Virus record (IMG/VR): IMGVR_UViG_3300025598_001943
Location: 1-33,042 of that record
Direction: 5' to 3' (one strand)
DNA length: 33,042 nt
DNA from: a virus
In this document: piece after piece, positions 10,909 through 33,042 of the stretch
Position numbering within the stretch: the stretch's first letter is position 1
Layout: each line of letters opens with the position of its first letter
Made by a program: the position numbers and the translations under genes
Notes under the pieces: model-generated
What the model was told of the DNA's origin: nothing
The model's database searches: none
Seen by the model: only the letters and a program-made list of their open reading frames with translations

Positions 10909-12570
10909 ATGGCGATTATTGTCGATGCAAAAATCAAGGATCAAACCGCCTTTGCGGCGATTCGAAGCCTTCAATCCAGTATGGAGGCGGTCAAGAAGTC
11001 GACGAGTGATGTGAACGCTGGAATTCACAAGCTGAACATCTCCCTTGCGAACACAAAGTTCCTGGCCAATGAGGTCGCGACTGCCTTTCAAAAAATGGTC
11101 GCCTCGATCGGCGGCATGCAGGGAATCAAAATCCCGAAGATTTCCTCTGGAGGATCCTCAGGGGGGAGTGGCGGAGGTAGGAGAGGCTCGGGTGGTGGTT
11201 CAGGCTACAATGGCCCACTTAACCTGCCGATTTATTCCAACCTTCGAAAGGCTTACGGGGCACTACATGACGCTCGTGTTGCGGGAGATCCTTATGCGAC
11301 GAAGATTGCGCAGCAGCAGGTGAACACTGCCTACAACAATCTGATCAAAAAGTCTTCTCCCAAAGCTCCGCCAGTAGTGGACCCAATCAGGAAGCTGATC
11401 AACAACAGCAGGGCCGCAATCGGTCCCAACGGGAAATTGCAACTCATGCCTATATTTGGGCACATGCTTTCGATGGGCATGAACCCAACCATCGGCGGCA
11501 TTCTGAACCTGGCGGGATCCGCGAGTGCTGCCGGGGGAACTGCTGGTCTGGCGGGAACTGCTGCTGGGGTTGCAGCGCCGTTTGCTGCTGCTGCTGCACA
11601 ATCCCTGGCGCTTGCAATGGCCATGAAATCAACGGTCAGCACGTTGAATGAAGTGCGCACGTCGCTTGTACGGGGCGGAGGCACTGTTGGCGAAGCTCGG
11701 TCGGCAAACCTATTTGGGGCAGCTCTAGGAATTGATGTCGCGGGGCTTGGTAGCAACTTGCTAAGTGGATTTGGGCCGATCGCTGCTGCCGGTGCAGGCG
11801 TCAATCCGCTCGGCGGCCCGTTCGGTGACAACAACTACAACACCAAGGGACTCAAGGTTCTCGACTGGATCCGCAACTCAAAAGACTTGAACCAGTCAAG
11901 AAAGCGCGCAGAGATGGCTGGTTCGCCCGATGCGGCCGGTGCCTACTTCTTGTCTCAACCGGTCTACGACGTGATGCGCAATCAGAGACAAGGATCAGGC
12001 TCCTTTGAAAACATGAGGGCTGCAGCAGATTTCTCTGCGAGCATGGCCGTGGCCGCTCAAGGCATCAAGGACTTCATTGTCATCCTGTTTGGCAACGACA
12101 TGAAGCAGTTCGCGTACTTCATTAGCACGCTAAACACCGCTATTAAGACCACGTCGGAGTGGTTGAGCGATACATTCGGGCCAACGCTGAAAACGGTTGG
12201 CAGGATGTTCCAGACGCTTGGCGATGCCATTCAGAAGTTTGTGATTGGAGGCTACGACCTTCTTGTCAAGCCGATCATTGACCCGTTCATTCAGGCCGGA
12301 CAGCTCATTCTGTCCTTTGTTTCTCGGATCTATGGCAACATCCTAAGTGCGGTCAACAATATCGTTGACAACATCAGGACGGCGCTTCACCTACCGCTCG
12401 ACAGCCATAAGGAAGCAGTCGAAAAGAACACTGATGCAGTGAACCGCCTGAACAATGCCGTGCGAGAAGGACAATTCGGAGGAGGGCCGCGAGCAAGTAG
12501 TTCAATGCCAGGGAAGGTAATTCCTGGGCTGACGCCAGGATGGCAGTCGGCAAGCTGGGGGATCCTCTAA
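10909..12570 (+). CDS. Tail tape measure protein, 553 aa
   Basis: This protein sets tail length and is carried inside the tube. It starts two bases after the chaperone stop. The N-terminus (residues 1-70) is helical with coiled-coil-like spacing. A Gly/Ser linker spans about residues 78-105, and a very hydrophobic Ala/Gly/Leu segment about 197-240, typical of the membrane-inserting part of tape measures. More helices follow to the end. At roughly 1.5 angstrom per residue the tail would be near 80 nm, a short siphovirus tail (rule of thumb). The C-terminus overlaps by four bases a gene on the opposite strand, the edge of the accessory island. Lysozyme or peptidase motifs were not seen. Confidence 0.75.
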   Translation: MAIIVDAKIKDQTAFAAIRSLQSSMEAVKKSTSDVNAGIHKLNISLANTKFLANEVATAFQKMVASIGGMQGIKIPKISSGGSSGGSGGGRRGSGGGSGYNGPLNLPIYSNLRKAYGALHDARVAGDPYATKIAQQQVNTAYNNLIKKSSPKAPPVVDPIRKLINNSRAAIGPNGKLQLMPIFGHMLSMGMNPTIGGILNLAGSASAAGGTAGLAGTAAGVAAPFAAAAAQSLALAMAMKSTVSTLNEVRTSLVRGGGTVGEARSANLFGAALGIDVAGLGSNLLSGFGPIAAAGAGVNPLGGPFGDNNYNTKGLKVLDWIRNSKDLNQSRKRAEMAGSPDAAGAYFLSQPVYDVMRNQRQGSGSFENMRAAADFSASMAVAAQGIKDFIVILFGNDMKQFAYFISTLNTAIKTTSEWLSDTFGPTLKTVGRMFQTLGDAIQKFVIGGYDLLVKPIIDPFIQAGQLILSFVSRIYGNILSAVNNIVDNIRTALHLPLDSHKEAVEKNTDAVNRLNNAVREGQFGGGPRASSSMPGKVIPGLTPGWQSASWGIL

Positions 12571-13358
12571 AAGACTCGTTCGACGGTAGGCATATTTGAG
12601 CCGTCAGTAAAGGTGCAAACCGACTCTGAAACAAGACGCCCTTGAGAAAACACAAACATGGCAGTCTTCTTCGACGATAGGTCAGCCGCGATCGACTCGT
12701 CTCCAGTTCCAACAAACACGCCGTAGGTTTCGATCTGGCTGTTTGGAGGATACGAGCGAGGCGTGAGCGACTGATCTGGAAATGCCCTCATCACTTCTTG
12801 TTCGGACATTCCCTGTTTGAATCCTTGACCATCAGAGGAAGGGGTAAGGCCTCCAAGGGTGTGGGTCAGCAGGCCGTCTCCAACAACAAACACAAAGAGC
12901 GCAAAAGCGTAGCCGCAGAAAGCGTTCTTCCACTCCGAATAATAAGGCGCTTCATAGACGTAGAGTCGCCTTAGGCGCGTGCCTATGAAGGTGACAGCCG
13001 CGCATGAGACCACGAAACCAAGCGCTGCGATCCAAGCCATTCTTGAGATGAACCAGTCAGCAAACGAATTGCTGACACCGGTCGATCGCTCAGCGTAGAA
13101 CGCCTGAAAAGTCCCGCAGACGTACTGAAGTGTCACGATAGCCGCAAGAGTGGCAATCGTGAGAAAGATCCAGTGCCACACGACAGACAACCTCCACTCG
13201 ACCGGATCTTTGGTCGTTCGTGGAATCGCTGCTGCAGGCTGGACCGGCGCATAGGTCGGTTGCGCAACCGCGAAAGGTTGCCCGCACTGAGGACAAAAAG
13301 CCATTGATGGATGGCATGCAGAACGGCAACGAGCGCAGTACTTTGCTTGTTGAAGCAC
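12567..13358 (-). CDS. Zinc-ribbon membrane protein with BamE-like C-terminus, 263 aa
   Basis: Oriented against the tail genes. The N-terminus has C8-x2-C11 and C22-x2-C25, a zinc ribbon. A Pro/Ala linker follows, then three hydrophobic segments at about residues 61-80, 107-126 and 147-166. The last 85 residues, starting F-K-Q-G-M-S-E-Q-E-V-M and ending with strands and 'MFVFSQGRLVSESVCTF', resemble the SmpA/OmlA (BamE) small domain, where 'G-M-t-...-v' opens a helix. So: cytoplasmic ribbon, membrane anchor, folded end domain. The start is GTG at 13358, with no clear ribosome site. It may be a lysogeny-expressed (moron) protein affecting the host envelope, but that is inference. Confidence 0.6.
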   Translation of the reverse strand: MLQQAKYCARCRSACHPSMAFCPQCGQPFAVAQPTYAPVQPAAAIPRTTKDPVEWRLSVVWHWIFLTIATLAAIVTLQYVCGTFQAFYAERSTGVSNSFADWFISRMAWIAALGFVVSCAAVTFIGTRLRRLYVYEAPYYSEWKNAFCGYAFALFVFVVGDGLLTHTLGGLTPSSDGQGFKQGMSEQEVMRAFPDQSLTPRSYPPNSQIETYGVFVGTGDESIAADLSSKKTAMFVFSQGRLVSESVCTFTDGSNMPTVERVF

Positions 13359-13379
13359 GACGGCATTTTACGCCACGAG

Positions 13380-13601
13380 TCAGTCTTCCGCAGGCTGGCG
13401 CAGTTTAGAAGGGTCCTTTTCGATCTCTTTGGCGTACCACAAGCCGGCTCGTTCAAGGAACAGACTCAAGCTATACCCGTATTCGGAGGCGACAAATTCA
13501 AGCTTGGTTCTTGTGTCCGTGTCTAGGGTGACAGTGACTGGCTTTCGCTTGATTCCCGTGGCCTTCCGAGGCATGGATGATTTTAGCGTCATATCGCTCA
13601 T
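13380..13601 (-). CDS. Ribbon-helix-helix-like DNA-binding protein, ~73 aa
   Basis: Small basic protein with a central 'KRKPVTVTLDTDTRTKLEFV' stretch, which fits the strand followed by helix of an RHH (Arc/CopG-like) domain; a second helix (YSLSLFLERAGLWYAKEIEK) follows. Such proteins bind operators as dimers and repress. The start is ambiguous. The frame is open to ATG 13616, but that codon lies inside the -10 of its own likely promoter, so I favour 13601; 13592 and 13574 are alternatives. The inverted repeat just upstream (13608-13645) is a plausible operator, giving autorepression and control of the divergent gene at 13725 (inference). Confidence 0.6.
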   Translation of the reverse strand: MSDMTLKSSMPRKATGIKRKPVTVTLDTDTRTKLEFVASEYGYSLSLFLERAGLWYAKEIEKDPSKLRQPAED

Positions 13602-13607
13602 AAAAGC

Positions 13608-13645
13608 ATTATACACGCATGAATACGTTTATATACGTGTATAAT
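13608..13645. promoter_or_regulatory. Divergent promoters with 10-bp inverted-repeat operator
   Basis: ATTATACACG (13608-13617) and CGTGTATAAT (13636-13645) are exact reverse complements. Each arm carries a perfect -10 TATAAT reading outward: 13640-13645 on plus, 13613-13608 on minus. ATACGT also repeats at 13623 and 13633, one helical turn apart. No good -35 is visible on either strand, which suggests dependence on a regulator or an atypical promoter. Confidence 0.6.
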
Positions 13646-13667
13646 ACGATCAGTCAGGCAAAGAAAA

Positions 13668-13696
13668 GCCCCGGCGATGCTCGACCATCCCGAGGC
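13668..13696 (+). other. Leader hairpin upstream of the first paralogous gene
   Basis: GCCCCGG pairs with CCGAGGC (one C-A mismatch), extended inward by GATG with CATC around a CTCGAC loop, with a bulge. It lies between the divergent promoter and the ATG at 13725, so it would be in the untranslated leader. No T-run follows. The role is unknown. Confidence 0.4.
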
Positions 13697-13724
13697 GCGA
13701 TGCCTGCGAACTGAGCGCAAGCAC

Positions 13725-14174
13725 ATGAAGAGTGTAACAGCCAAGGCAAAGAGTATTAGTCCTTTCGTCAAAATCGGACGCCCGGTCACGGTCGGAGAAA
13801 TTGACCTTGCCCATTATCCAGAGGCACAAGCATCGCTAAAGCGAATCTTGGAAAAGACCTACGGATTCAATCTTGACGATTTGAAGATCAGCGGGATCGT
13901 CAACCCTGGCGAAACCGAAGCCGATCTTGAAGTCTGGTTTGGAGAAAGAAGAGTCCACTACTGGAACCTAAAGGACCTCGCTTACGGTGGCGACTTTGTC
14001 GTGATCGCTCGCCCCGGAAGGTCGCTAGATGCAAGCGCAAAGCGCAATCTGCCAGACCGATTCGCCAATGAGTGGCTAGAAGTGTCGGGATATCCCGCAG
14101 GTTATCCCTGCCGAATCGACGTGTCTGTAGACGCCAAGAACGGCATGTCGATCGACGTAGCTCCCTTCAACTAG
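13725..14174 (+). CDS. Unrecognised protein, family member A (149 aa)
   Basis: I do not recognise this family. It is a gap-free homologue of the product of 15586-16035: same length, about 67 identical positions of 149 by hand count. Shared blocks are E-I-D-L near residue 25, P-E-x-Q-A-S-L near 32-38, T-E-A-x-L-E-V-W-F near 64-72, R-x-V-H-x-W-x-L-x-D-L-x-Y-G-G near 75-89, and W-L-x-V-x-G-Y-P-x-G-Y-P-C-R-x-D-V near 117-133. There is no membrane segment or signal. I use ATG 13725, since the homologue's start aligns with it; the longer frame from 13677 begins inside the leader hairpin. It lies downstream of the divergent promoter and may be controlled by the RHH-like protein. Confidence 0.65.
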   Translation: MKSVTAKAKSISPFVKIGRPVTVGEIDLAHYPEAQASLKRILEKTYGFNLDDLKISGIVNPGETEADLEVWFGERRVHYWNLKDLAYGGDFVVIARPGRSLDASAKRNLPDRFANEWLEVSGYPAGYPCRIDVSVDAKNGMSIDVAPFN

Positions 14175-14224
14175 CGCTGACGACGATGAACACACACGCG
14201 AAAGACTTGGTCATCGAGGATGGC

Positions 14225-14254
14225 GATCATCTTGCTGACACCAGCAAGATGATC
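14225..14254 (+). repeat. Hairpin with GATCAT...ATGATC arms (first of a pair)
   Basis: A perfect 13-bp inverted repeat (14225-14237 with 14242-14254) around a four-base loop, extended by GGC/GCC with one bulge. It shares GATCATYTT / AARATGATC outer ends with the larger palindrome 24 bases downstream. It lies 51 bases after gene A. This could be tandem terminators or a structured RNA. Confidence 0.6.
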
Positions 14255-14277
14255 CGCCACGGACAGGCTCGGCGACT

Positions 14278-14321
14278 GGCACCAGATCATTTTCCCGGCG
14301 CCGGGAAAATGATCTGGTGCC
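14278..14321 (+). terminator. 44-base perfect palindrome, likely terminator
   Basis: Bases 14278-14299 and 14300-14321 are exact reverse complements (22 bp), then CCCTTTTGGGCATTTTTG follows, with T-runs at 14324-14327 and 14334-14338. It could end transcription from gene A. The perfect long stem without a loop could also form a cruciform, and the symmetric sequence would form the same hairpin in minus-strand RNA. Confidence 0.6.
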
Positions 14322-14464
14322 CCTTTTGGGCATTTTTGTCGTTCTATTTGCGAGGACAATTTTGAGCAATCACATCTTAAACTCGGCAATCGTTCGCCAC
14401 GAGATCGGTTCCATCAATACGGTTTTGTGGACGGCGCTGGCTATGCGACATATGAGGACACCGC

Positions 14465-14491
14465 TCCCCAAAATCGGGGAGCGGGAAATCG
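14465..14491 (+). repeat. Hairpin repeat, copy 1
   Basis: This copy matches 14541-14567 at 23 of 27 positions. In it CCGCTCCCC (14461-14469) pairs perfectly with GGGGAGCGG (14476-14484). The hairpin is stronger than copy 2. Confidence 0.55.
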
Positions 14492-14540
14492 AGGAGTCAG
14501 AACCGAGTACGTCCTGAGCGTCGACTATGAAGATTTGAGG

Positions 14541-14567
14541 TCCCCAATATCGGGGAGCACGAAATTG
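14541..14567 (+). repeat. Hairpin repeat, copy 2
   Basis: Direct repeat of 14465-14491, offset 76 bases, with only a five-bp stem left (TCCCC / GGGGA). It runs straight into the gene remnant at 14567. Confidence 0.55.
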
Positions 14568-14607
14568 CATGTCGATCGACGTAGCGCCTTTTAACGAGCA
14601 CTCATGA
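14567..14607 (+). pseudogene. 3'-end remnant of a third family-A gene copy
   Basis: Nineteen bases (14567-14585) are identical to the end of gene A (14143-14161), and similarity continues for ten more bases. Translated, both give M-S-I-D-V-A-P-F-N, in frame; here the frame then reads E-H-S and stops at 14605-14607. Upstream bases show no further similarity. The simplest reading is an old duplication of the gene end, or of a whole gene mostly deleted. At DNA level it matches gene A, not gene B. Confidence 0.6.
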
Positions 14608-14700
14608 TTTGGGCCTAGGCTCGGCCCTGGTTCTAGAACAAAGCGGGCGGTGTCGTTACCACCGCCCGTGAGCCAATACCCGTACGAGGGGGTAACAGCC

Positions 14701-15531
14701 ATGAACACAAAAGAAACCTATCTTGCCACAGGAGGTCAATCCTCCGCCATTACGTCTCCGTTTGACTTGATTCGGAAAGTGCGAGAAGACGGCTCCGAGT
14801 ATTGGAGCGCTCGAGACTTGATGCCCATTCTTGGGTACGACCGGTGGGAAAACTTCTCCGAGAGCATCGACCGCGCAAGGGCAGCCGCCTCGAACGTTGG
14901 ACAAGATGTAGTTCTAGCTTTTCGTGACGCCACGAAAATCAAGGACAGTCGCAATCGACACGGCGGGATACAGATACCCGTAGCCGATTTCCACCTGACC
15001 CGCTACGCTGCTTACCTCGTGGCGATGAACGGCGATCCTCGCAAGCCCGAGATTGCAGCCGCTCAAACCTACTTCGCGATTAAGACCCGTGAGGCGGAGC
15101 TCAAGACCGATCTGCCGAAGTCTCTGCCTGAGGCGCTGCGAGCTTATGCCGCCGAACTGGAGGCCAAAGAGGCGCTAGAGATGAAGATGAAGGCGCTTGC
15201 TCCTGTCGTGGAGTTCCATGACCACGTAGCGGGCGCAGTCGAGGCTCAGGTGGTTAACGAGGTTGCCAAGGTGCTGAAGACCGGCGAGCAGCGGTTGTGG
15301 AAGTTCCTTCAGGCGCAAGGCATCGTGATGATGGAAGGGCGCTCTTGGGTGCCGAAGCAAGAGTATGTGGAGCGTGGCTACTTCCGGGTTGTGGAAAAGT
15401 CCTACAAGCACGCTAAGACAGGTGAAACGCACGTTTACTGCCGAACCCTTGTTACGGGCAAGGGCCTCATCTGGCTGCAGAAGAAGTGGTCAGAGAAAGA
15501 CGCCGTTGAAATCGGACTCCAAAACAAGTAG
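14701..15531 (+). CDS. BRO/KilAC-type phage antirepressor, 276 aa
   Basis: Antirepressors relieve phage repressors during induction. GAGGGGG at 14686-14692 sets ATG 14701; an in-frame ATG at 14650 is less likely. Residues 22-125 match the BRO-N/DinD-like domain: F-D-L-I-R-K-V near the start, Y-W-S-A-R-D-L-M-P-I-L-G-Y, then the hallmark L-T-R-Y-A-A-Y-L-V-A-M-N-G-D and K-P-E-I-A-A-A-Q-T-Y-F-A. A helical linker (residues 130-175) precedes a KilAC (PF03374) domain, with L-A-P-V-V-E-F, then L-W-K-F-L-Q-A-Q-G-I and a 'T-G-K-G-L-I-W-L' end. It lies between the two homologous unknown genes, so the set may form one regulatory module (inference). Confidence 0.85.
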   Translation: MNTKETYLATGGQSSAITSPFDLIRKVREDGSEYWSARDLMPILGYDRWENFSESIDRARAAASNVGQDVVLAFRDATKIKDSRNRHGGIQIPVADFHLTRYAAYLVAMNGDPRKPEIAAAQTYFAIKTREAELKTDLPKSLPEALRAYAAELEAKEALEMKMKALAPVVEFHDHVAGAVEAQVVNEVAKVLKTGEQRLWKFLQAQGIVMMEGRSWVPKQEYVERGYFRVVEKSYKHAKTGETHVYCRTLVTGKGLIWLQKKWSEKDAVEIGLQNK

Positions 15532-15552
15532 AAGTTTGTATACTAATCTCAC

Positions 15553-15572
15553 CAACAGGAAGGTACCTGTTG
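15553..15572 (+). promoter_or_regulatory. Small hairpin just upstream of a ribosome site
   Basis: CAACAGG (15553-15559) pairs with CCTGTTG (15566-15572) around a six-base loop. AGGAG (15574-15578) begins two bases later, seven bases before GTG 15586. The hairpin could affect ribosome access. A TATACT -10-like hexamer lies at 15539-15544 without a matching -35. Confidence 0.4.
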
Positions 15573-15585
15573 AAGGAGATATTAC

Positions 15586-16035
15586 GTGAGCGAGAAAAAG
15601 CCGAGAAAGAAAATCTCGAGCCCATATGTGAATTGTCATCGCCCCGCACGGGGCAACGAGATCGACCTCGTGCGGTTCCCTGAAGTCCAGGCATCGCTGA
15701 GTCGAGTTCTTGACCGAACCTACAGATTCGACCAGTCGAAGATCAGACTCGAAGGGCATGTCGACGTAAGCCAGACAGAAGCGACCCTTGAGGTTTGGTT
15801 TGACGACCGGAAGGTCCACAACTGGACGCTGCGCGATCTGTCGTACGGTGGACATTTCACCCTCACGGCTCGCAAGGGCTACTTGCTCGAAGAGTGCATC
15901 GGGGCTGACATCCCTGGACAACTTGTCGAAGGCTGGCTTTCAGTCGCCGGGTATCCGCCTGGCTACCCGTGCAGGGTGGACGTAGCCACGGACGCGCGGA
16001 ACGCGCTCGAAGTCGAAGTTTTGCCCTTCTCGTAG
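15586..16035 (+). CDS. Unrecognised protein, family member B (149 aa)
   Basis: Homologue of the product of 13725-14174, aligned end to end without gaps at about 45% identity by hand count. The GTG start is set by AGGAG at 15574-15578. The N-terminal 12 residues are Lys/Arg/Ser-rich and differ most between the copies. The W-F-x-x-R-x-V-H, Y-G-G and G-Y-P-x-G-Y-P-C-R-x-D-V blocks are identical or conserved. Several acidic and aromatic residues in these blocks suggest a conserved binding or active site, but no known family comes to mind. It follows the antirepressor by 54 bases and is followed by a strong hairpin. The two copies have diverged greatly at DNA level, so the duplication is old. Confidence 0.65.
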   Translation: MSEKKPRKKISSPYVNCHRPARGNEIDLVRFPEVQASLSRVLDRTYRFDQSKIRLEGHVDVSQTEATLEVWFDDRKVHNWTLRDLSYGGHFTLTARKGYLLEECIGADIPGQLVEGWLSVAGYPPGYPCRVDVATDARNALEVEVLPFS

Positions 16036-16044
16036 TCTGCTAGA

Positions 16045-16077
16045 CGCCCTTCACTTCTGGACTAGAAGTGAAGGGCG
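16045..16077 (+). terminator. 14-bp perfect hairpin after gene B
   Basis: CGCCCTTCACTTCT (16045-16058) pairs exactly with 16064-16077 around a five-base loop. No T-run follows, so it is a termination candidate of uncertain strength. A GCCCTTTAGGGC palindrome lies about 30 bases downstream. Confidence 0.5.
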
Positions 16078-16156
16078 GCAAAGCCAATCCTCAGATTTCA
16101 GCCCTTTAGGGCGACCGCGCGAAGCGCACGAAAACGCTTGGCGCATGGAGACTCCT

Positions 16157-16357
16157 ATGAACTGGTTAAAAGCGGTGTTTCATAACGTTTGCTTATCGTG
16201 CGGAGCGAAGAAAGGGTGCGCCGTCGATAAGGTCGTCACAAGTCCTCAAGAAGGCGCGGGAACCTTTCCGATAAGCCTTTTTTATGATAACAGCGCGGCC
16301 AGCGAGCAGGGAGAGACGATGGACGGGATAAGCAACGGGATGCGATTAGTATGCTAA
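16157..16357 (+). CDS. Hypothetical small protein, 66 aa
   Basis: Unrecognised. I use ATG 16157, preceded by GGAG at 16147-16150; an in-frame ATG at 16145 is possible. The N-terminus (M-N-W-L-K-A-V-F-H-N-V-C-L-S-C-G-A-K-K-G-C) has an amphipathic helix and three closely spaced Cys residues. That could bind a metal, but there is no second Cys pair. The rest is polar. It overlaps the next gene by seven bases in another frame. This stretch is visibly more AT-rich than the tail genes, consistent with separate acquisition. Confidence 0.45.
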   Translation: MNWLKAVFHNVCLSCGAKKGCAVDKVVTSPQEGAGTFPISLFYDNSAASEQGETMDGISNGMRLVC

Positions 16358-16872
16358 GAATCAACTACCATGACACTCAGTTCAACCGTCGCCAATTTAG
16401 GAGCTTGGACGAAGAAGCTTCTTTTGTGTTTGCGAGCTACTCCGGAAAAATCCCTAAATCTGAATACACAACAATCAAATCTGCAGTCCTTGAATACTGG
16501 ACTAGCCCAAGTCTTTATCGTCGACTTCACAGGTTACAAGATTCTTTGTGGCGTCGATTTCACAGCTTAGAATCCTTACCAAACCCCGAGAAAATCGCAT
16601 TATGGATCCGATTGGCGGGATACAGCGAAACTAATGAAAAGTGTGAGACGATTCCAGCCAGAGAGGTGGAAGGAGTCGCCACAGGCGAAGCTGATGGGTC
16701 AAATATCGCTCGGGACATCATGTTTGATCTTGATAGTTCGCACGCGCTTTATCTCGACGTCATAAAAGAAAACAACCGCTTGGCAGATCGAATTAGCGAA
16801 CTTACCGAGGAAAACCGGAAGCTTAGAAAGTCTGTTAACGCGGCGAGGATCTACGTTATCAAGAATTCATAG
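16351..16872 (+). CDS. Hypothetical protein with C-terminal coiled coil, 173 aa
   Basis: Unrecognised. It begins M-L-R-I-N-Y-H-D-T-Q, with a basic, aromatic-rich N-terminal half (residues 1-95) suggesting a compact helical domain. The C-terminal 35 residues form a leucine-zipper-like coiled coil (IKENNRLADRISELTEEN). Such a layout is common in small DNA-binding or oligomeric regulators, but no helix-turn-helix is clear. It overlaps the upstream gene by seven bases. The composition is AT-richer than the flanking structural genes. In an island with an antirepressor and RHH-like protein, a regulatory role is possible but unsupported. Confidence 0.5.
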   Translation: MLRINYHDTQFNRRQFRSLDEEASFVFASYSGKIPKSEYTTIKSAVLEYWTSPSLYRRLHRLQDSLWRRFHSLESLPNPEKIALWIRLAGYSETNEKCETIPAREVEGVATGEADGSNIARDIMFDLDSSHALYLDVIKENNRLADRISELTEENRKLRKSVNAARIYVIKNS

Positions 16873-16911
16873 ATCCTAATCGGACGATCAAAAGACCCTG
16901 ACGAGACCCCG

Positions 16912-17091
16912 ATGAACAGTATTAGTTTGGAGCCGATGTCCGAAGCCGCATATCAGGATGCTTGCCAAAAGCTCAAAAGCAATCCCCGTATGGTGGCGCT
17001 CATGAGAGAAGCGCAGCGACGGGCCACGAACCCGGACACTCCGCTCATCCTGAAAGGGATAGCCGCTCTGGCATCCGAAATTCTTGACTAG
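16912..17091 (+). CDS. Small protein, 59 aa
   Basis: A short frame starting at ATG 16912 and ending with TAG at 17089-17091, 39 bases after the previous gene. The protein is helical and soluble: M-N-S-I-S-L-E-P-M-S-E-A-A-Y-Q-D-A-C, then a basic middle (LMREAQRRATN) and a hydrophobic C-terminal helix (ILKGIAALASEIL). GC use at third positions looks more like the phage genes than random sequence. A terminator begins 28 bases later, as expected for a last gene in a unit. The ribosome site is weak (GAGA at 16903). Function unknown. Confidence 0.45.
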   Translation: MNSISLEPMSEAAYQDACQKLKSNPRMVALMREAQRRATNPDTPLILKGIAALASEILD

Positions 17092-17118
17092 AGTCCACTA
17101 GCCCGCACATCTATCGAC

Positions 17119-17151
17119 AAGGCCCATGCCCTAAACGGCGTGGGCCTTTTT
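17119..17151 (+). terminator. Rho-independent terminator closing the accessory island
   Basis: AAGGCCCATGCC (17119-17130) pairs with GGCGTGGGCCTT (17137-17148) with one wobble; TTTTT at 17147-17151 follows the stem. It lies 14 bases before ATG 17165 of the tail-hub gene, which means tail-tip genes need readthrough or a promoter of their own. Confidence 0.8.
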
Positions 17152-17164
17152 CATTTCGACCGCC

Positions 17165-19189
17165 ATGCCAACGCCTCTTGTGTCCCCCATTGGCACCTTT
17201 GCCGATCGCACGACCTACGTCGTGTTTGGTGACTACCTTCCGGGCACTCTACAGCCGTGGGTGAGCATTCAGCGCGATGCGGACCAGATGTGCCACTCGA
17301 ATGCCGCAGTCATCAGTGACGCGATTCTGGCTCCTCGAATTGGCTGGCAAATTGCTTCCTACCAGCTTGACCCAGGATCCGCGACGTGGCTGACTGCTGC
17401 TCAGTCAGGCGTGCTCACTCCCGCTGCGGGCAACGCGTCGGCTGGGAGCTACATGTTCGAAGCTCCGGCATTCACGCAGGAGACGATCCCTGGGATGTCG
17501 TACGGCTCGGGCGTACAGACAACGGGCGCACCGTACCTCACGGCACGCTACCCGACGTCTGAGACCAACTGGGGCAACAATGCGATGTCGAGCGACCAGG
17601 CGGCGTTTCCTGGCCCTAACCCTTCAGAGGACCTTGTCCCGCTTGACCGAGTGTTGGTTTCCTCAACGTCCGCGGTGAACCCGTGGGACGATATCACGTT
17701 CCTGTTTATCGCTCCTGGATCGGCGATCTCGCCTAGGTCCACACTAGCGAACCTTTACTTTATGGGTCCTGCGGGATCCGATCAGGCAGCGGTCAACGAT
17801 TCTGGCCTTCTTGGCACGGGCGACTACTGCGCCAAGATTCGAGGCGACGGAAAGGCCTACGTTTACGAGCTGCTCAACAACCAAACGTGGAAGAAGCGGT
17901 TTAGCTTCCCCTGGCGCTATAACGCCAACGCTGTCTCATGGGGAGTTGAACGAATCTGCGTCAAGTCGCGAATGTGGCAGGACGCCCACGAGAACTACCA
18001 GGGTGACCGTATCACGTTCAACCAGGCGGGTTGGACGGTCACTCCCGGCCATTACGGCACCATCGACGCCATGGTGGGCCTAGCTCACGCGGCGATCAAG
18101 ACTGCGACTGGAGACGTGCCGACCTACAACGTTCCGCGCCTCTCGGACCAGCCGACGACCAAGGTTCCGATTCGAGTAGATCTTGCTCGCGACTGCAGAG
18201 CATCTATCCAGGTTTCGCGCCATATCTATTACGCAAGCGCGACCATTCGCGACGACTACCTGTGCTTCCAGCACGCGATCACGACCGACGAGCCGATCTA
18301 TGTGTACCTTTCGGGCGTCCTTCCATCCGGTACGTCTTGGAACGTCAAAGCCTACGACGAGAACGGCACAATGCTCGCCGTCAATTCGGGACTGACGACG
18401 ACCAACACAAAGACAGGCCAGGTCGCAACGATCTCCTTTGTGCCCACGACGATCTCCGGAGTCGGCCAGCGATACATTCAACTGGAGTTCACGCTTAATT
18501 CGAACTCCGACTTCTCTCAAACTCCGACGATCACGGGCTACGAAGTCGATCGCACGGTTGTTTACGCCGGCGCGAGTCCGGTTACCCCCGTCACGATTCC
18601 TTCTGCCCGGGGCAGCCTGCCAGCACTTCTCAAAAACGCTGTCGAGTCGATTACGATCACCCCTCAGCAAGCCGATCCTGGTGCCGAGAGCGCCACGGTG
18701 GTGGTGGCTGACTACCTGAACGAACTCCAGTACATCCAGGAAGTCAACCGCCTGCCAATCGCAATCTGGACGACGTACGACTCGCATGGCAACGTTGCGT
18801 GCCTGTTCCGTGGCTACATCCGTACAGCTTCGCGCAAGATCCACCGCTCAAGCCCGTTCCAGGTGTACCCGGCGACCGACTGGAGCGAATACACCCTTCA
18901 ATGCGACGGCGAGTGGTCAAGGGCTGCACAGGTGCGAGTGCCGAACTTCAGGACGTGGACCAATCCGGTCACGGGCCAGCCATTCAAGGCGACCGACGTC
19001 ATTCGGATCTGCGCTTCGACGATCTACCCCTCATGGATGGTCGATGTGCCAGACCTCGACGTTCAACTGTTCTCGGCAGACGGCGACGCATACGTCGCTG
19101 AGTTCGGCACCCAGATGATCGACATCATGTCTGAGATGTGCGCCGACTTCACGGGCGGCTACATGCTTTTTGACGAGGCGGCAAGCTAA
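17165..19189 (+). CDS. Tail hub/distal tail protein, 674 aa
   Basis: First gene after the island, on the tail strand, at the place of distal-tail and hub (Dit/Tal) proteins. It is almost entirely beta-type with no membrane segment. Residues 1-330 look like a large N-terminal jelly-roll or carbohydrate-binding-like region. Residues 340-470 form another beta domain. Residues 480-674 carry a hub-like segment: 'VESITITPQQADPG', then 'WTTYDSHGNVACLFRGYI', then 'YTLQCDGEW' and 'DIMSEMCADFTGGYM', consistent with baseplate hub domains. The next gene's product starts where this one ends and looks like a continuation. The start ATG has no ribosome site and is 14 bases from a terminator. The family is uncertain. 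Confidence 0.6.
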   Translation: MPTPLVSPIGTFADRTTYVVFGDYLPGTLQPWVSIQRDADQMCHSNAAVISDAILAPRIGWQIASYQLDPGSATWLTAAQSGVLTPAAGNASAGSYMFEAPAFTQETIPGMSYGSGVQTTGAPYLTARYPTSETNWGNNAMSSDQAAFPGPNPSEDLVPLDRVLVSSTSAVNPWDDITFLFIAPGSAISPRSTLANLYFMGPAGSDQAAVNDSGLLGTGDYCAKIRGDGKAYVYELLNNQTWKKRFSFPWRYNANAVSWGVERICVKSRMWQDAHENYQGDRITFNQAGWTVTPGHYGTIDAMVGLAHAAIKTATGDVPTYNVPRLSDQPTTKVPIRVDLARDCRASIQVSRHIYYASATIRDDYLCFQHAITTDEPIYVYLSGVLPSGTSWNVKAYDENGTMLAVNSGLTTTNTKTGQVATISFVPTTISGVGQRYIQLEFTLNSNSDFSQTPTITGYEVDRTVVYAGASPVTPVTIPSARGSLPALLKNAVESITITPQQADPGAESATVVVADYLNELQYIQEVNRLPIAIWTTYDSHGNVACLFRGYIRTASRKIHRSSPFQVYPATDWSEYTLQCDGEWSRAAQVRVPNFRTWTNPVTGQPFKATDVIRICASTIYPSWMVDVPDLDVQLFSADGDAYVAEFGTQMIDIMSEMCADFTGGYMLFDEAAS

Positions 19190-20169
19190 TGCCTACTCCC
19201 ACCGGCGTACTGCGGATGCTTGAGCAAAAGCGTCCACCCTACAACAACCTGGCCATCTTCGAGATTGATCACCCCACCTTGCTCGCGATGGATGGGCAGG
19301 AAAGGGTGCCTCAGTGGTGCGCTGCCTACGGAACGACGAAGGTCGGCGACCAGGTCATCCAGCATGGATTTGTACAAGCTGGCACGGTCGTAACTGCTCG
19401 CGACGCGGCAGAAGGCAACGTTGTCATCGTCACAGGTGGGGCTGTCGCGGAGAACGCTTCGAAGGCTGGCTTCCAGGATGCCGGACTCATCACACGGACC
19501 ATCTACAAAGTCGATTCGTGCAACTTCTTCAACCTTCCAGACACGAATCCTCACTTCCCGGACGGCAGTTCCCCCGAATACTTTGGCCATGCGGTGCCGA
19601 TCGAGGTCGTCGACTTTAAGCTTCAGACACAAGAGGCTGTAGACGTACGCGCTCGCAGGATCTACGACAAGGCTTGCTGGTCGCGGTTCTACTTCAACTT
19701 CACTGGGCCGATGATGCTGGTCACAGACGTGACGGACGGAAGACAGGTGGCACCTCGAAGGCTTCGGTTTTACGACCCGGTGCAGCTTCGGATGCCCAAC
19801 GGGGATCTCAGCCAGTTCCTCGTGCTTTCGTGCAGCCCTGCCTACACGAAGGACTCGTTGCAGATGGCCAACTACTCGCTCGTCACTCAGTCGAACATCA
19901 ACTCGATTGCTGCGCTACGGGATCCTCACTCGATGCTTGCCCGCATGAAGAAAGCACTTGAGAGACTTATGGGCGGTTCCATCGGGCCCTACAACCCGGG
20001 CACATCGGCGGCGCACAACCAGGCACGGCCAAGCCTTTCGAGGGCAATGCCCCTCCCTGTGGCCTATGCGGATCCAATCCAGGACTTAGACCCTTCGAGT
20101 TCAGGTTTTGGGCAGTTTTACTACCAGCCTGGCTACGACGGACTCGGCATGGCCCCTCTCGGACGGTAG
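19189..20169 (+). CDS. Tail hub/tip protein, second part, 326 aa
   Basis: Starts with a TAATG overlap from the previous gene, so the two are translationally coupled. The first residues (PTPTGVLRMLEQKRPPYNN) resume the 'GGYM-LFD' end of the upstream protein in a natural domain order. I suspect the pair encodes two pieces of what is one hub protein in other phages. The middle is beta-rich with Asp/Tyr/Phe-lined strands, and a likely loop region spans residues 265-326 (Ser/Pro/Gly/Ala-rich). No catalytic motif seen. The alternative is two separate tail-tip proteins. Confidence 0.55.
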   Translation: MPTPTGVLRMLEQKRPPYNNLAIFEIDHPTLLAMDGQERVPQWCAAYGTTKVGDQVIQHGFVQAGTVVTARDAAEGNVVIVTGGAVAENASKAGFQDAGLITRTIYKVDSCNFFNLPDTNPHFPDGSSPEYFGHAVPIEVVDFKLQTQEAVDVRARRIYDKACWSRFYFNFTGPMMLVTDVTDGRQVAPRRLRFYDPVQLRMPNGDLSQFLVLSCSPAYTKDSLQMANYSLVTQSNINSIAALRDPHSMLARMKKALERLMGGSIGPYNPGTSAAHNQARPSLSRAMPLPVAYADPIQDLDPSSSGFGQFYYQPGYDGLGMAPLGR

Positions 20170-20415: not shown

Positions 20416-23400
20416 ATGCCCATCAACGGGAAAATCTTTGACTCGGCGTCGTATCACTTCGATATCCAGTCGAGCGCGTCCGGGTCGCACAGCGGCATCG
20501 GCACCGGGGAGTACTCTCACTCGGCATCGATCCAGACCAACTGGACGCCTGATGCGATCGGTACGGCCTGGTCAGAGCTGCTTACGTTCGTGTCGCTTCA
20601 GGTGTCAGCCACGACCGTCAGCGGCGGATCACAGACGCTGACCTACAACGGTCCCAGTGCACCGTTCGGAGGGTACAGCCACACGATCAGCGGCTATTCG
20701 AGCGCGGTCAGTGGCAGGGTGCAGTTCAACGGCACAAAGGTGTACTGCAAGCTCACGGGAGGGCTATTGCGGTTTGTGGTGTCGTCGATCGGCATCTACA
20801 TGAACGGAACCCTGCTCGTAACCCTCAGCGGGTTTGACGTGGTTTCGAACGGCTGCGGGCCGTCTTACATCAACTATTGCGGCATTCCAGGGCTCGTCTC
20901 GGGCTCTTGCGGAGCGTCCACGGACGGGCTGCCCGGCACGATGCCCACGACCTACGACTATTCGAGCTCGATTTCGCAGTCGATTGTCGGAGGCTGGGGA
21001 TTCAGTGACGCGTTTGGCGATCAGTCACTGCCCATGACCATCCTAGGCGTCTCGCTGCCTTCCGGCTCGGGCTGCCCTTACGGACTGGGCCTTGGCTACG
21101 TTTCTTCGAGCGGCACGGATGGCGTGAGCATCAGCCAGTACAGCTATTCCGAGTCCAAACGAGAGTATGTGACCGAGCAGACCGGACAAACGCAGTACGA
21201 GGTCCTCTGCGGAACGACTCCGATCTACGGGCCGGTGACAGTCACCTCGTACTGCACCAACCTCGACGGATCTTCAGGTGTCGCAAAGCGCAAGGTGTAC
21301 AAGGACACCACGATCTCGGAAAGCTACGGCGGGTCAGCTTATGCGATGCCCGATCTCCCTCGTGGTGTGGCCCGCATGCAAAGCGGCTACCGTTCGATCT
21401 GGTACCGGATCGGGTTTCCCAAAACCACGAGTTCGGGCAGCCGGACATGCACCATCAACGGCGTCACAACCTCGGCAAGCCTCACGTCGACGGTTCACCC
21501 AACCGGCTCGGCGTTCCTCGCATCAGTCACGGACAGTACGCACACAATTGAGCAGCCGCTCGGACTGAACTGCTACGCTCCGATGACTCAGGGGCACAGC
21601 AAGAGCCAGTCTCAGGGCTACGAGTATGTGTACGAGTACGCGTTCTGTGCCTGCCCGCCTCCTGGGCAGCCTGGGCCTGGCTCATTCACATGTCCCGACC
21701 CTGACCTACCGCCAACCGCAAACTGTATCCTGACTTGGCCGGGCCTTGCCGATCTTGTGAACCAAAGCGAGAGCGTCTCGTTCAGCTTCCCGGCAACAGT
21801 TGAGGACTCCACGTCCAACCCGCAGATGTCCGGCTGGCAATACCATCAGGACCCGATCGCGCGGTACTGGAACTACTGGGGCAATCCGCTCTGGCAGTAC
21901 GCGCACTGGTTTCCACCCAACGATGGAAGCGGCGAGCAGACGCAGTGGCCACTCGATGACGGTTCAGTCGACAACGCCTATTGGAAGGGCATCAGGGACC
22001 AAAAGAGCCAGCAGGCAAGCCTCCCAAGCGGAGAGAACACGCACACGCGGGTCTCGAACATCGCCTCGATCTGGGACGAGGGCGGCCTCACGCCCCTTCT
22101 TGATGCCGAGTTCGGTTCGTTCAGGCTGATCGGCGTCCATCGCTGGATCACGGAGAACGTTAGCCCTCTATCGAGCTACACGTACACCTCGGCGTCGGCA
22201 TCCCTTTTCTCCGGGACAAACTGCACGCTCTCGTACATCAGTGGCGGCATCGTGATCACTCCGACAGGCTCGGGGCCGTGCACGGTGACCTTGAACTGCG
22301 CAAGTTGGACGGTGATGCCCTACCTCTACCCGCATCTGTGCAACCAGATCACGGTAGGTTGGGAGCCTGGCAACGTGGCTTCGGCATCCGTGGCCATGGT
22401 GGGCGTCGATGGGACAAGTCAGCAGATTGCGACCGCTGCGGGCACTTACTCGCGGCCAACGGTCACAGCGTCGGCCTACGCGGGATCGTGGGGTATCGAC
22501 AACGGTGACGGCTACACGGGAGGCGATCAAGGCACGGACGTTCCATCAGGTGGACTCTCGGCGGCAACAATGGCCGATCCAACGCGCTGTTTTGCATTTG
22601 AGCTCCTTCCAGGAAAGACTTGCGCGAAGCTGACGTTCACCCTAACGCCAACCGATCACACGCACACGATGACGCTGCACTACCCGCAGTGGATTGGCCC
22701 AAGCGAGCCACCCACGCAGGTGTGGGAATCTGGGCAGTGCGTGGACTGGCTTTACCCGTCAGGGCCTGGAGTTCGCTGGGGCAACTGGATCTTCTACGAT
22801 CCAATGCTAGGGTTCCAGCAGCCGCCTGAAGTGATCGGGCTCGGATACAAATCTACGATTGTCGACGCGCTATGTACCAAGCGGGCAGTGTTCCTTGCGG
22901 CTGATCCTCTCACGGGCGGAGGGCCGACCGGAGCGCCTTCTCTGACCACGGAGATCGCAAGTTTGTACGATGCTTACGAAGGACAGTCAATCGCTCAGTG
23001 CGACGAAGACGGAATCTCGTTTGTTCTGCCGAACGGTAGCGTCTCGGGCGACAAGACCGTTCGGTTCGCGCTATGCAACTCGTTCGCGGAGATTCCGCCT
23101 ATCGGGGCTTTCCCGTTTCGTGGGCGCTCTCCCGCTGACTGGTCGCCGAGCGATCCGTACACGGGTGTGGTCTGGGATTGGTCACAGGAAGCCCGGTACC
23201 TCGTGGCCCAGGGTGCCAACGTTCCCTCGATTTCTCCTCCTTCCAGTTCTCCTTGGAGTTCATCCGACACAGCTCCTGCGGGATGGGCAATTGCCAAGTA
23301 CATCCACTCGGTTACAGACTCCGAGGACTCGACTTTCAACCTCAAGACGGGATCAACAACCTGGGCGCACGTTGCCCCGTGGCATGGCTATTTTGGGATC

Positions 23401-24042
23401 CTCTCGAAGCACGTCGTCAGCCATAGCCCGTGGCACATTCAGGACCAGTACGGCCGCATTCACGTCGCTTCGGTGAACTCGGACGGTGACGTGCTCTACC
23501 AGCGTGCCGACACAGTCAATGCCCGCACAGGGTGGGCGGTTAGCGGAGTGGTTACGAGCTTCGGCGACGTCCAGTATGCGCGAATGTTCCTCGACGGATC
23601 CATGCGGATCTACCTCCTCGTGCTTCGGCTGAGCCACACCGGCACCTACAGCATCTATGAACTGTATTCGGACGACGACGGAAACAACTTTGACTCGGGG
23701 ACTCTGCTTATGAGCAACGCTATCGCTCCGGACGGCTGGCACGAAGCCATTGGAGGCTCTGCCGGCGTCACATGGTTTGAATACGACTCCGGCACCTCAG
23801 GGCGCGGAGTGCAGAAAGCCATCTACCGCGATGGAGACGGCAATACGAGTTGGAGCAGCCCTTTCACTTTTGTGAACAACTCGGGCAACCCGATTCACGT
23901 CGCTGACGGCGGGTGGTCTGACGTTGAAGCTGCAGCCAACTCACCGAGGTATCTGACGTGGACGCCAGTGATAGACGGCGAGACTGCTCCTTCGATTTGG
24001 CATTCGATCGACAACGCTCGATCTTGGATCCGGGACTACTGA
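20416..24042 (+). CDS. Large tail-tip protein with sialidase-like C-terminus, 1208 aa
   Basis: AGGTGA at 20407-20412 supports the start. It is beta-rich throughout. Residues 1-400 are Ser/Gly/Thr/Tyr-rich with a repetitive 'Y.H..SG...S' texture. A short Pro/Cys linker follows (about 410-440: C-A-C-P-P-P-G-Q-P-G-P-G), then a middle domain (450-850) with many Trp. The last 170 residues resemble a sialidase/BNR beta-propeller: Asp-box-like motifs S-D-D-D-G-N-N-F (1085-1092), R-D-G-D-G-N-T-S-W (1138-1146) and S-I-D-N-A-R-S-W (1197-1204) recur at 50-60 residue spacing. It is probably the receptor-contacting tip or fibre (inference). The sialidase active-site arginines were not identified, so it may only bind glycans. 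Confidence 0.65.
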   Translation: MPINGKIFDSASYHFDIQSSASGSHSGIGTGEYSHSASIQTNWTPDAIGTAWSELLTFVSLQVSATTVSGGSQTLTYNGPSAPFGGYSHTISGYSSAVSGRVQFNGTKVYCKLTGGLLRFVVSSIGIYMNGTLLVTLSGFDVVSNGCGPSYINYCGIPGLVSGSCGASTDGLPGTMPTTYDYSSSISQSIVGGWGFSDAFGDQSLPMTILGVSLPSGSGCPYGLGLGYVSSSGTDGVSISQYSYSESKREYVTEQTGQTQYEVLCGTTPIYGPVTVTSYCTNLDGSSGVAKRKVYKDTTISESYGGSAYAMPDLPRGVARMQSGYRSIWYRIGFPKTTSSGSRTCTINGVTTSASLTSTVHPTGSAFLASVTDSTHTIEQPLGLNCYAPMTQGHSKSQSQGYEYVYEYAFCACPPPGQPGPGSFTCPDPDLPPTANCILTWPGLADLVNQSESVSFSFPATVEDSTSNPQMSGWQYHQDPIARYWNYWGNPLWQYAHWFPPNDGSGEQTQWPLDDGSVDNAYWKGIRDQKSQQASLPSGENTHTRVSNIASIWDEGGLTPLLDAEFGSFRLIGVHRWITENVSPLSSYTYTSASASLFSGTNCTLSYISGGIVITPTGSGPCTVTLNCASWTVMPYLYPHLCNQITVGWEPGNVASASVAMVGVDGTSQQIATAAGTYSRPTVTASAYAGSWGIDNGDGYTGGDQGTDVPSGGLSAATMADPTRCFAFELLPGKTCAKLTFTLTPTDHTHTMTLHYPQWIGPSEPPTQVWESGQCVDWLYPSGPGVRWGNWIFYDPMLGFQQPPEVIGLGYKSTIVDALCTKRAVFLAADPLTGGGPTGAPSLTTEIASLYDAYEGQSIAQCDEDGISFVLPNGSVSGDKTVRFALCNSFAEIPPIGAFPFRGRSPADWSPSDPYTGVVWDWSQEARYLVAQGANVPSISPPSSSPWSSSDTAPAGWAIAKYIHSVTDSEDSTFNLKTGSTTWAHVAPWHGYFGILSKHVVSHSPWHIQDQYGRIHVASVNSDGDVLYQRADTVNARTGWAVSGVVTSFGDVQYARMFLDGSMRIYLLVLRLSHTGTYSIYELYSDDDGNNFDSGTLLMSNAIAPDGWHEAIGGSAGVTWFEYDSGTSGRGVQKAIYRDGDGNTSWSSPFTFVNNSGNPIHVADGGWSDVEAAANSPRYLTWTPVIDGETAPSIWHSIDNARSWIRDY

Positions 24043-31899: not shown

Positions 31900-32143
31900 G
31901 GCCACCCTGGTTGTATTCCCGCGCCTCGTCACTCAAGAGGTAATCCATCGCGCCCTGGGCGGTGGAGCAGGGCTCCCAGAGGAAACCCTTGTCGTTTACC
32001 ACCCAGAACTCCGAGCCATCGAAGAACGGCTCCGAGAACCGAACCACTCTAAATCTGCCTTCGGTGTGAATGACCTCGTACGGCGCTCGTATCTGCGCGA
32101 GGTTGCGGATAACTTCCGACGCGCTGGCATAGTTCGTGTTCAT
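31886..32143 (-). CDS. Hypothetical small operon protein, 85 aa
   Basis: Unrecognised. ATG 32143 overlaps the IbrA-like stop by four bases (ATGA). The protein has a helical N-terminus (N-Y-A-S-A-S-E-V-I-R-N-L-A-Q-I), a strand-rich middle (Y-E-V-I-H-T-E-G-R-F-R-V-V-R-F, then 'EFWVVNDKGFLWEP'), and a helical C-terminus (M-D-Y-L-L-S-D-E-A-R-E-Y). This suggests a small alpha-beta-beta-alpha fold. The strict overlap with both neighbours suggests it works with the IbrA-like and GNAT proteins, but there is no direct evidence. Confidence 0.55.
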   Translation of the reverse strand: MNTNYASASEVIRNLAQIRAPYEVIHTEGRFRVVRFSEPFFDGSEFWVVNDKGFLWEPCSTAQGAMDYLLSDEAREYNQGGHASD

Positions 32144-33042
32144 AGATTCGCGTACTTCTCCATGATCGCTTTCTTCCGCTCAACCTCCCTCTTGGTCTGA
32201 GCGAAGCCCATGTATTTGCAAAGATGGTCGTTTTTGAGGATGCAAATCACAAGGCGCTTCCATGTCGGAACAAGTCGAAAATCGTCGACGCCCGTGTCAT
32301 CCAGGTAGTCATCAAACCGGATCACCTCGTGTGCGCCTTTACCGCGGTTGTTGGTTTCTCCCGTGCGGATGACAGGCGCTCCCTCGGCAATCAGTTGCTC
32401 GATTAGTTCAGGACTTCGAGCTCCACCTACCTTCCAAGACTTCTTGCTGGCCTCGATCTTCGATAGGTAAGTGTTTCGCGTGTCCTCCGGCAGTGTCGAC
32501 AAAAGAAACTCGGCGTAGGTCTTCCACGTGTGGCCCGGTGGAAGCTTGATGTTCTTCCACGCGACAGCATCTGTACCGCCATAGATGGCCGTGAAGTTCG
32601 CTCCGTTGACTCTGCCCACCATTCGCGCCCAGATGTTGGGCTCCAGGACGCGGTACAGCTTCAAGGTGCTGATTGCCCAGTCGTGGAAAGGAGAGGCAAC
32701 GCGCATCTCGTGAACGCTCAGCCCTGCGGCATGCATGAGGTCGTAGAGTTTGTTGTAGTCGTAGCCGAATTTGGCGTTGGCTGTCCAGATGTCCTCAACT
32801 GGCCAGTCGTACAGTGGGTAGCCGCACCACACGTTCTCGGAGATCCCTGATGTCCAGTTCGCGCCAAGGTATGAAGATTCGCGCTCCGTCGAAGCAGCTC
32901 TCCACCGGTTCAGTGACTCATCTGAACGGATTCCGATGAGCCCGATCGTGCGCCCTTTGGATCCGCAAACTACCCTGTGATACCAGGGGCCGAACTCCCG
33001 ATAGACGTCCTCCTGCATCATGCCAAAGATGAAGAAGTCGAA
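32140..33042 (-). CDS. IbrA-like PAPS-reductase-family protein (DUF3440), N-terminus beyond window
   Basis: The frame is open past ATG 33021 to the window edge, reading F-D-F-F-I-F-G-M before it, so I treat the gene as cut at its 5' end; the PP-loop (SGGKDS-like) part would lie outside. Visible: G-L-I-G-I-R-S-D-E-S-L-N-R-W, the hallmark after the nucleotide-binding domain in IbrA relatives, then P-L-Y-D-W-P-V-E-D-I-W, the PAPS-reductase 'Pi.dW...dvW' signature, and a C-terminal DUF3440-like stretch with R-V-A-S-P-F-H and G-H-T-W-K-T-Y. PP-loop proteins activate a substrate with ATP. With the IbrB-like and GNAT genes it forms a compact operon. Its promoter and start lie outside. Confidence 0.78.
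   Translation of the reverse strand, partial: FDFFIFGMMQEDVYREFGPWYHRVVCGSKGRTIGLIGIRSDESLNRWRAASTERESSYLGANWTSGISENVWCGYPLYDWPVEDIWTANAKFGYDYNKLYDLMHAAGLSVHEMRVASPFHDWAISTLKLYRVLEPNIWARMVGRVNGANFTAIYGGTDAVAWKNIKLPPGHTWKTYAEFLLSTLPEDTRNTYLSKIEASKKSWKVGGARSPELIEQLIAEGAPVIRTGETNNRGKGAHEVIRFDDYLDDTGVDDFRLVPTWKRLVICILKNDHLCKYMGFAQTKREVERKKAIMEKYANL

Follow-up and report, generated by a model that had tools for sequence, protein, structure and literature searches.

A putative lysogeny-control cassette laid out like P22 immI, carrying two paralogous orphan genes and set among the tail genes of a temperate phage

Results

The window, that is the whole stretch of 33,042 nucleotides analysed (IMG/VR record IMGVR_UViG_3300025598_001943), contains a rightward series of genes on the plus strand. 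It begins with gene A (13725-14174, 149 aa, ATG start), continues with an antirepressor gene (14701-15531, 276 aa) and then with gene B (15586-16035, 149 aa), whose GTG start is preceded by GAAGGAG. B is a paralogue of A, as a BLASTP alignment free of gaps finds 67 of 149 residues identical (45%, E=2e-53). The nucleotide differences between the two genes number 56, 52 and 102 at codon positions 1, 2 and 3, respectively, and this preponderance of third-position changes indicates that both are genuine genes under purifying selection; for synonymous change, NG86 returned -1, as at saturation. A and B are old, constrained paralogues. The product of the gene between them has a KilAC/ANT domain (PF03374, E=1.7e-25, 89.9 bits, gathering cut-off 25.3) and a Bro-N domain (PF02498, E=1.3e-8, 35.8 bits, gathering cut-off 25.6), and its translation likely starts at the ATG at 14701 rather than at the GTG at 14650. 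The first-pass annotation had described two 149-residue proteins with about 45% ungapped identity and conserved blocks such as TEAxLEVWF and GYPxGYPCR, flanking a BRO/KilAC antirepressor, and on each of these points it agrees with the present analysis.

The two intact copies named there are accompanied by a relic of a third, which had escaped notice. Between A and the antirepressor gene, at 14557-14595 on the plus strand, lie the last 13 codons of a further copy (ARNCMSIDVAPFN), the stop codon having been lost. This relic is part of a 41-nt repeat with 34 of 41 positions identical in DNA, the changes being mostly synonymous or at third positions, and none of 2000 shuffles reached this value (best shuffle, 24/41). 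A third member of the A/B family once existed at this locus. Ahead of the relic, a 25-nt repeat (88%; 14465-14489 and 14541-14565) comprises two CCCC/GGGG hairpins. The same intergenic region contains two strong palindromes on the plus strand (14225-14321, fold z = -9.3), one with 13-nt arms and a 4-nt loop and the other with 22-nt arms and no loop, which from their sequence could act as a terminator or an attenuator. The two palindromes, 14225-14254 and 14278-14321, have GATCAT...ATGATC in common, and the 22-nt arms of the loopless one are perfect. No further copy was found in the window or in the parts read of the sister contig described below, and they are possibly the remains of a mobile element. 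A leftward terminator-like hairpin (14644-14668, minus strand) lies just before the antirepressor start.

Downstream of B, a perfect 14-bp hairpin without a T run (16045-16077, plus strand) is a possible end of a transcript covering A, the antirepressor gene and B. It is followed, on the same strand, by a gene for a 173-aa protein with a possible C-terminal coiled coil (16351-16872), by a 59-aa ORF (16912-17091) and by an intrinsic terminator (17119-17148) that closes the cassette. An Rfam search gave no match.

Two genes point leftward. The first encodes an RHH-like regulator (13380-13574, minus strand) of 64 aa when read from its ATG, within a longer ORF extending to 13616. Its assignment as an RHH protein is made through protein P0004 of Synechococcus phage Sc-Yong805-2, to which it aligns ungapped with 27% identity (E=1e-4 in a single comparison) and which itself matches PF12651 RHH_3 (E=6e-11); the 64-aa protein gave no direct Pfam match, a result that we count against the interpretation of the block given below. 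The second gene encodes a predicted membrane protein of 263 aa (12567-13358, minus strand) with a zinc-ribbon-like N-terminus and about three transmembrane segments: the cysteines are zinc-ribbon-like, the corresponding profile matches are weak and under the cut-off (E=0.007), and hydropathy peaks at residues 57-84, 103-129 and 146-169. An inverted repeat at 13608-13645 (ATTATACACGCAT / ATACGTGTATAAT) holds in its arms the TATAAT -10 box of each of two divergent promoters, one TATAAT per strand. Judged by sequence alone, the promoters overlap with an operator-like repeat between them, and this repeat is a candidate operator for the RHH-like protein. The divergent promoter was already part of the first-pass annotation, to which the symmetric repeat is an addition.

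All these features belong to a block of 4.6 kb (12571-17164) that separates a tail gene (10909-12570) from further tail genes (17165-20169). In three relatives from IMG/VR (L057, L058 and L059), with capsids 44-50% identical, the two flanking tail genes have homologues that share a 4-nt overlap (CTCAATGAG). The block is therefore extra at this junction and most simply an insertion, which the first-pass annotation had missed. It is a variable insertion inside the operon of late virion genes, the site being empty in the three relatives, and phage Mae-JY24 has a different, single leftward gene in the same tail gap. The G+C content of the cassette is 53%, compared with 57-58% on either side. The position of A and B on the same strand as the tail genes and inside the tail module could mean that they are associated with the tail and are made late, from the surrounding operon; however, the absence of the whole block from the relatives at the empty site, together with the candidate divergent promoter and closing terminator that the cassette has of its own, makes this improbable.

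The presence of an integrase gene (L017:1148-2524) indicates that the phage is temperate. The C-terminal stretch of the integrase (about residues 400-457) weakly matches HNH-endonuclease profiles. Elsewhere, the window carries a phosphoadenosine phosphosulfate reductase-like gene (32140-33021, minus strand; phrog_2302, E=6e-57). The same phage also encodes a full-length deoxyribonuclease II (L015:6899-7954, minus strand, equivalent to 43898-44953 of the sister contig G001; PF03265, E=6.5e-71), for which tblastn against 50,697 phage records found no relative. Enzymes of the deoxyribonuclease II type are for the most part eukaryotic and lysosomal, and a few are bacterial.

The claim that A and B form an unrecognised family holds in every library and collection searched. 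Profile searches of both proteins against Pfam, PHROGs, NCBIfam, PADLOC and PDB gave no significant match, nor did tblastn when A was compared with 50,697 phage records and B with 72,556 plasmid records. By pattern scan, the only other IMG/VR record holding A and B is IMGVR_UViG_3300004807_000018, an 82-kb contig. This sister contig contains the window and is 100% identical to it where compared, with a single mismatch within the final 1110 bases, and so represents the same phage. A scan of GTDB with the A/B pair found none; the 34 loci returned by the GYPxGYPCR pattern were dismissed as chance matches, having nothing in common with A and B beyond the motif itself. Such pattern scans are insensitive to remote homologues. 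A profile built from A and B, which as a control recovers the two genes from the window as well as from the sister contig, found none in about 1,000 genomes from three phyla and a set of single genomes, cyanobacteria lying outside this sample. The A/B family is accordingly an orphan within the collections searched, which is a narrower statement than uniqueness.

Structure prediction with AlphaFold2 from two-sequence alignments was run for both monomers and yielded no usable fold; the pLDDT values of 46.7 (A) and 39.5 (B) were too poor for a fold search with the models. Weak matches to homeodomain chains around TEAxLEVWF (E=0.3-1.6) and, for A only, to the Arn DNA mimic DM_Arn (PF22134, E=0.23) might suggest homeodomain-like DNA-binding proteins or Arn-like DNA mimics, but neither match is significant and both identities were rejected. 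The Arn match reaches 12.2 bits against a gathering cut-off of 26, the proteins are not strongly acidic (predicted pI 6.1 for A and 6.5 for B), and the low-confidence models place TEAxLEVWF in what would be strands, not a helix. We consider either identity very improbable.

Discussion

We propose that the block at 12571-17164 is a self-contained lysogeny-control cassette, following the plan of the immI region of phage P22 with unrelated parts and inserted into a temperate phage's tail operon, a reading to which we assign a probability of roughly 55%. It is supported by the empty site in the three relatives, the BRO-N and KilAC domains, the RHH match to P0004, the operator-like repeat, the map of P22 immI, the similar block of Sc-Yong805-2, the integrase and the purifying selection acting on A and B. 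The suggestion made in the first-pass annotation, of a regulatory module comprising the divergent promoter and an RHH-like gene, is retained, and it is supported by the order of the genes, by the inverted repeat that covers both -10 boxes and by the likeness to Sc-Yong805-2.

By analogy with P22, the RHH-like protein would bind the inverted repeat in the prophage state and repress a co-transcribed A-antirepressor-B unit, while the leftward transcript would also yield the membrane protein found in the place of SieA. Upon derepression, in a fresh infection or upon induction, the BRO/KilAC antirepressor would be made and would disable the repressor of this phage or of a competing one. A 264-aa HTH-like protein encoded on the sister contig (G001 65260-66054) is a candidate for the repressor of the prophage. 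The strong palindromes that separate gene A from that of the antirepressor suggest that the amounts of the two products may be unequal; they may uncouple A from the antirepressor, which we count against the reading as a switch cassette.

Every biochemical role considered here for A and B is one that we infer. The most likely, and admittedly a guess, is that they are accessory switch proteins that would adjust the amount or the target of the antirepressor; that they have a specific role of this kind in the lysogeny switch is proposed tentatively, the odds being somewhat against it. A second hypothesis makes A and B "moron" proteins directed at the host, serving host takeover, counter-defence or phage exclusion, with nothing but the cassette and its promoter in common with the antirepressor. 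Their genes are orphans and occupy a site of variable insertion, where Mae-JY24 has a different gene, and P22 immI likewise carries sieA; duplicated and decaying copies would moreover suit genes under changing selection. Against this stands the lack of a PADLOC or PHROGs match, which is weak evidence for an orphan. Host-directed cargo, although unlikely when taken alone, is nearly as good an explanation of A and B as a role in tuning the switch. Control of the antirepressor by A or B, if it occurs, would add a component of a new type to a classical genetic switch, and the cassette in any case provides a context in which these two paralogous orphans can be tested.

As regards known systems, the antirepressor resembles other BRO-N/KilAC antirepressors (PHROG 63/130, PF02498, PF03374) in having both domains above cut-off, and its BRO-N part best matches the DinD-like model of NCBIfam, under the cut-off of that model. 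A similar arrangement is that of Sc-Yong805-2, whose capsid is 36% identical to that of this phage. There, RHH_3 and membrane genes diverge from genes for a 132-aa orphan and a Bro-N protein (OR075997, 25184-27509), again within the tail operon. However, that cassette occupies another site in the operon, just before the homologue of the window gene at 20416-24042, its BRO protein is different and has no KilAC match, and its orphan has no second paralogue. Homology between A and the 132-aa orphan was not established (hhalign probability 0.2%); in shuffling comparisons with A the result is marginal (z=3.4-3.7 with BLOSUM45, mostly null with BLOSUM62), and B is weaker. As the orphan is not demonstrably related to A, this counts against the cassette reading. 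A bolder proposition, that A and B found a new family of lysogeny-switch proteins replacing Arc in immI-like cassettes, with the 132-aa orphan as a distant relative and with such cassettes, their regulators being interchangeable, recurring in the tail operons of related phages, appears to us decidedly doubtful.

In P22 immI, sieA, orf59a and mnt are transcribed leftward and arc and ant rightward, from overlapping divergent promoters that enclose the operators of Arc and Mnt, and the region adjoins the tailspike gene 9; it lies within the late operon, yet is largely not expressed from it (PMC8022706). The cassette likewise has virion genes of the late operon on both sides, encodes a small regulator and a membrane protein leftward and an antirepressor rightward, and has putative divergent promoters that overlap around a candidate operator; the 263-aa protein stands in the place of sieA. 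The parts themselves differ. BLAST found no match between the RHH-like protein and P22 Mnt or Arc, nor between the antirepressor, of the BRO-N/KilAC family, and P22 Ant, which is of another family. Protein A (149 aa) occupies the place of Arc, a 53-aa RHH protein that is the second RHH repressor and first in its operon; RHH searches of A in Pfam and PHROGs gave no match, so that the position of Arc is held by something else. All these differences are counted against the cassette reading. The paralogue B downstream of the antirepressor is an extra element unlike P22. In P22, the sar antisense RNA ends at the start of ant, and the hairpin at 14668-14644 could, speculatively, stand in the place of the sar terminator; a leftward promoter-like site at 14739-14711 is no better than chance, and a sar-like RNA is at best a conjecture. 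The cassette looks as if it functioned in the manner of immI, a likeness of arrangement rather than a demonstrated homology, and the earlier description of an undescribed system was too strong, since the plan is the classical one of P22 although its parts are without sequence homology. It may be surmised that the secondary-immunity plan of P22, a self-regulated antirepressor block set among virion genes, arose or persisted without detectable relation to P22, and that the regulators within this immI-like plan have been swapped out.
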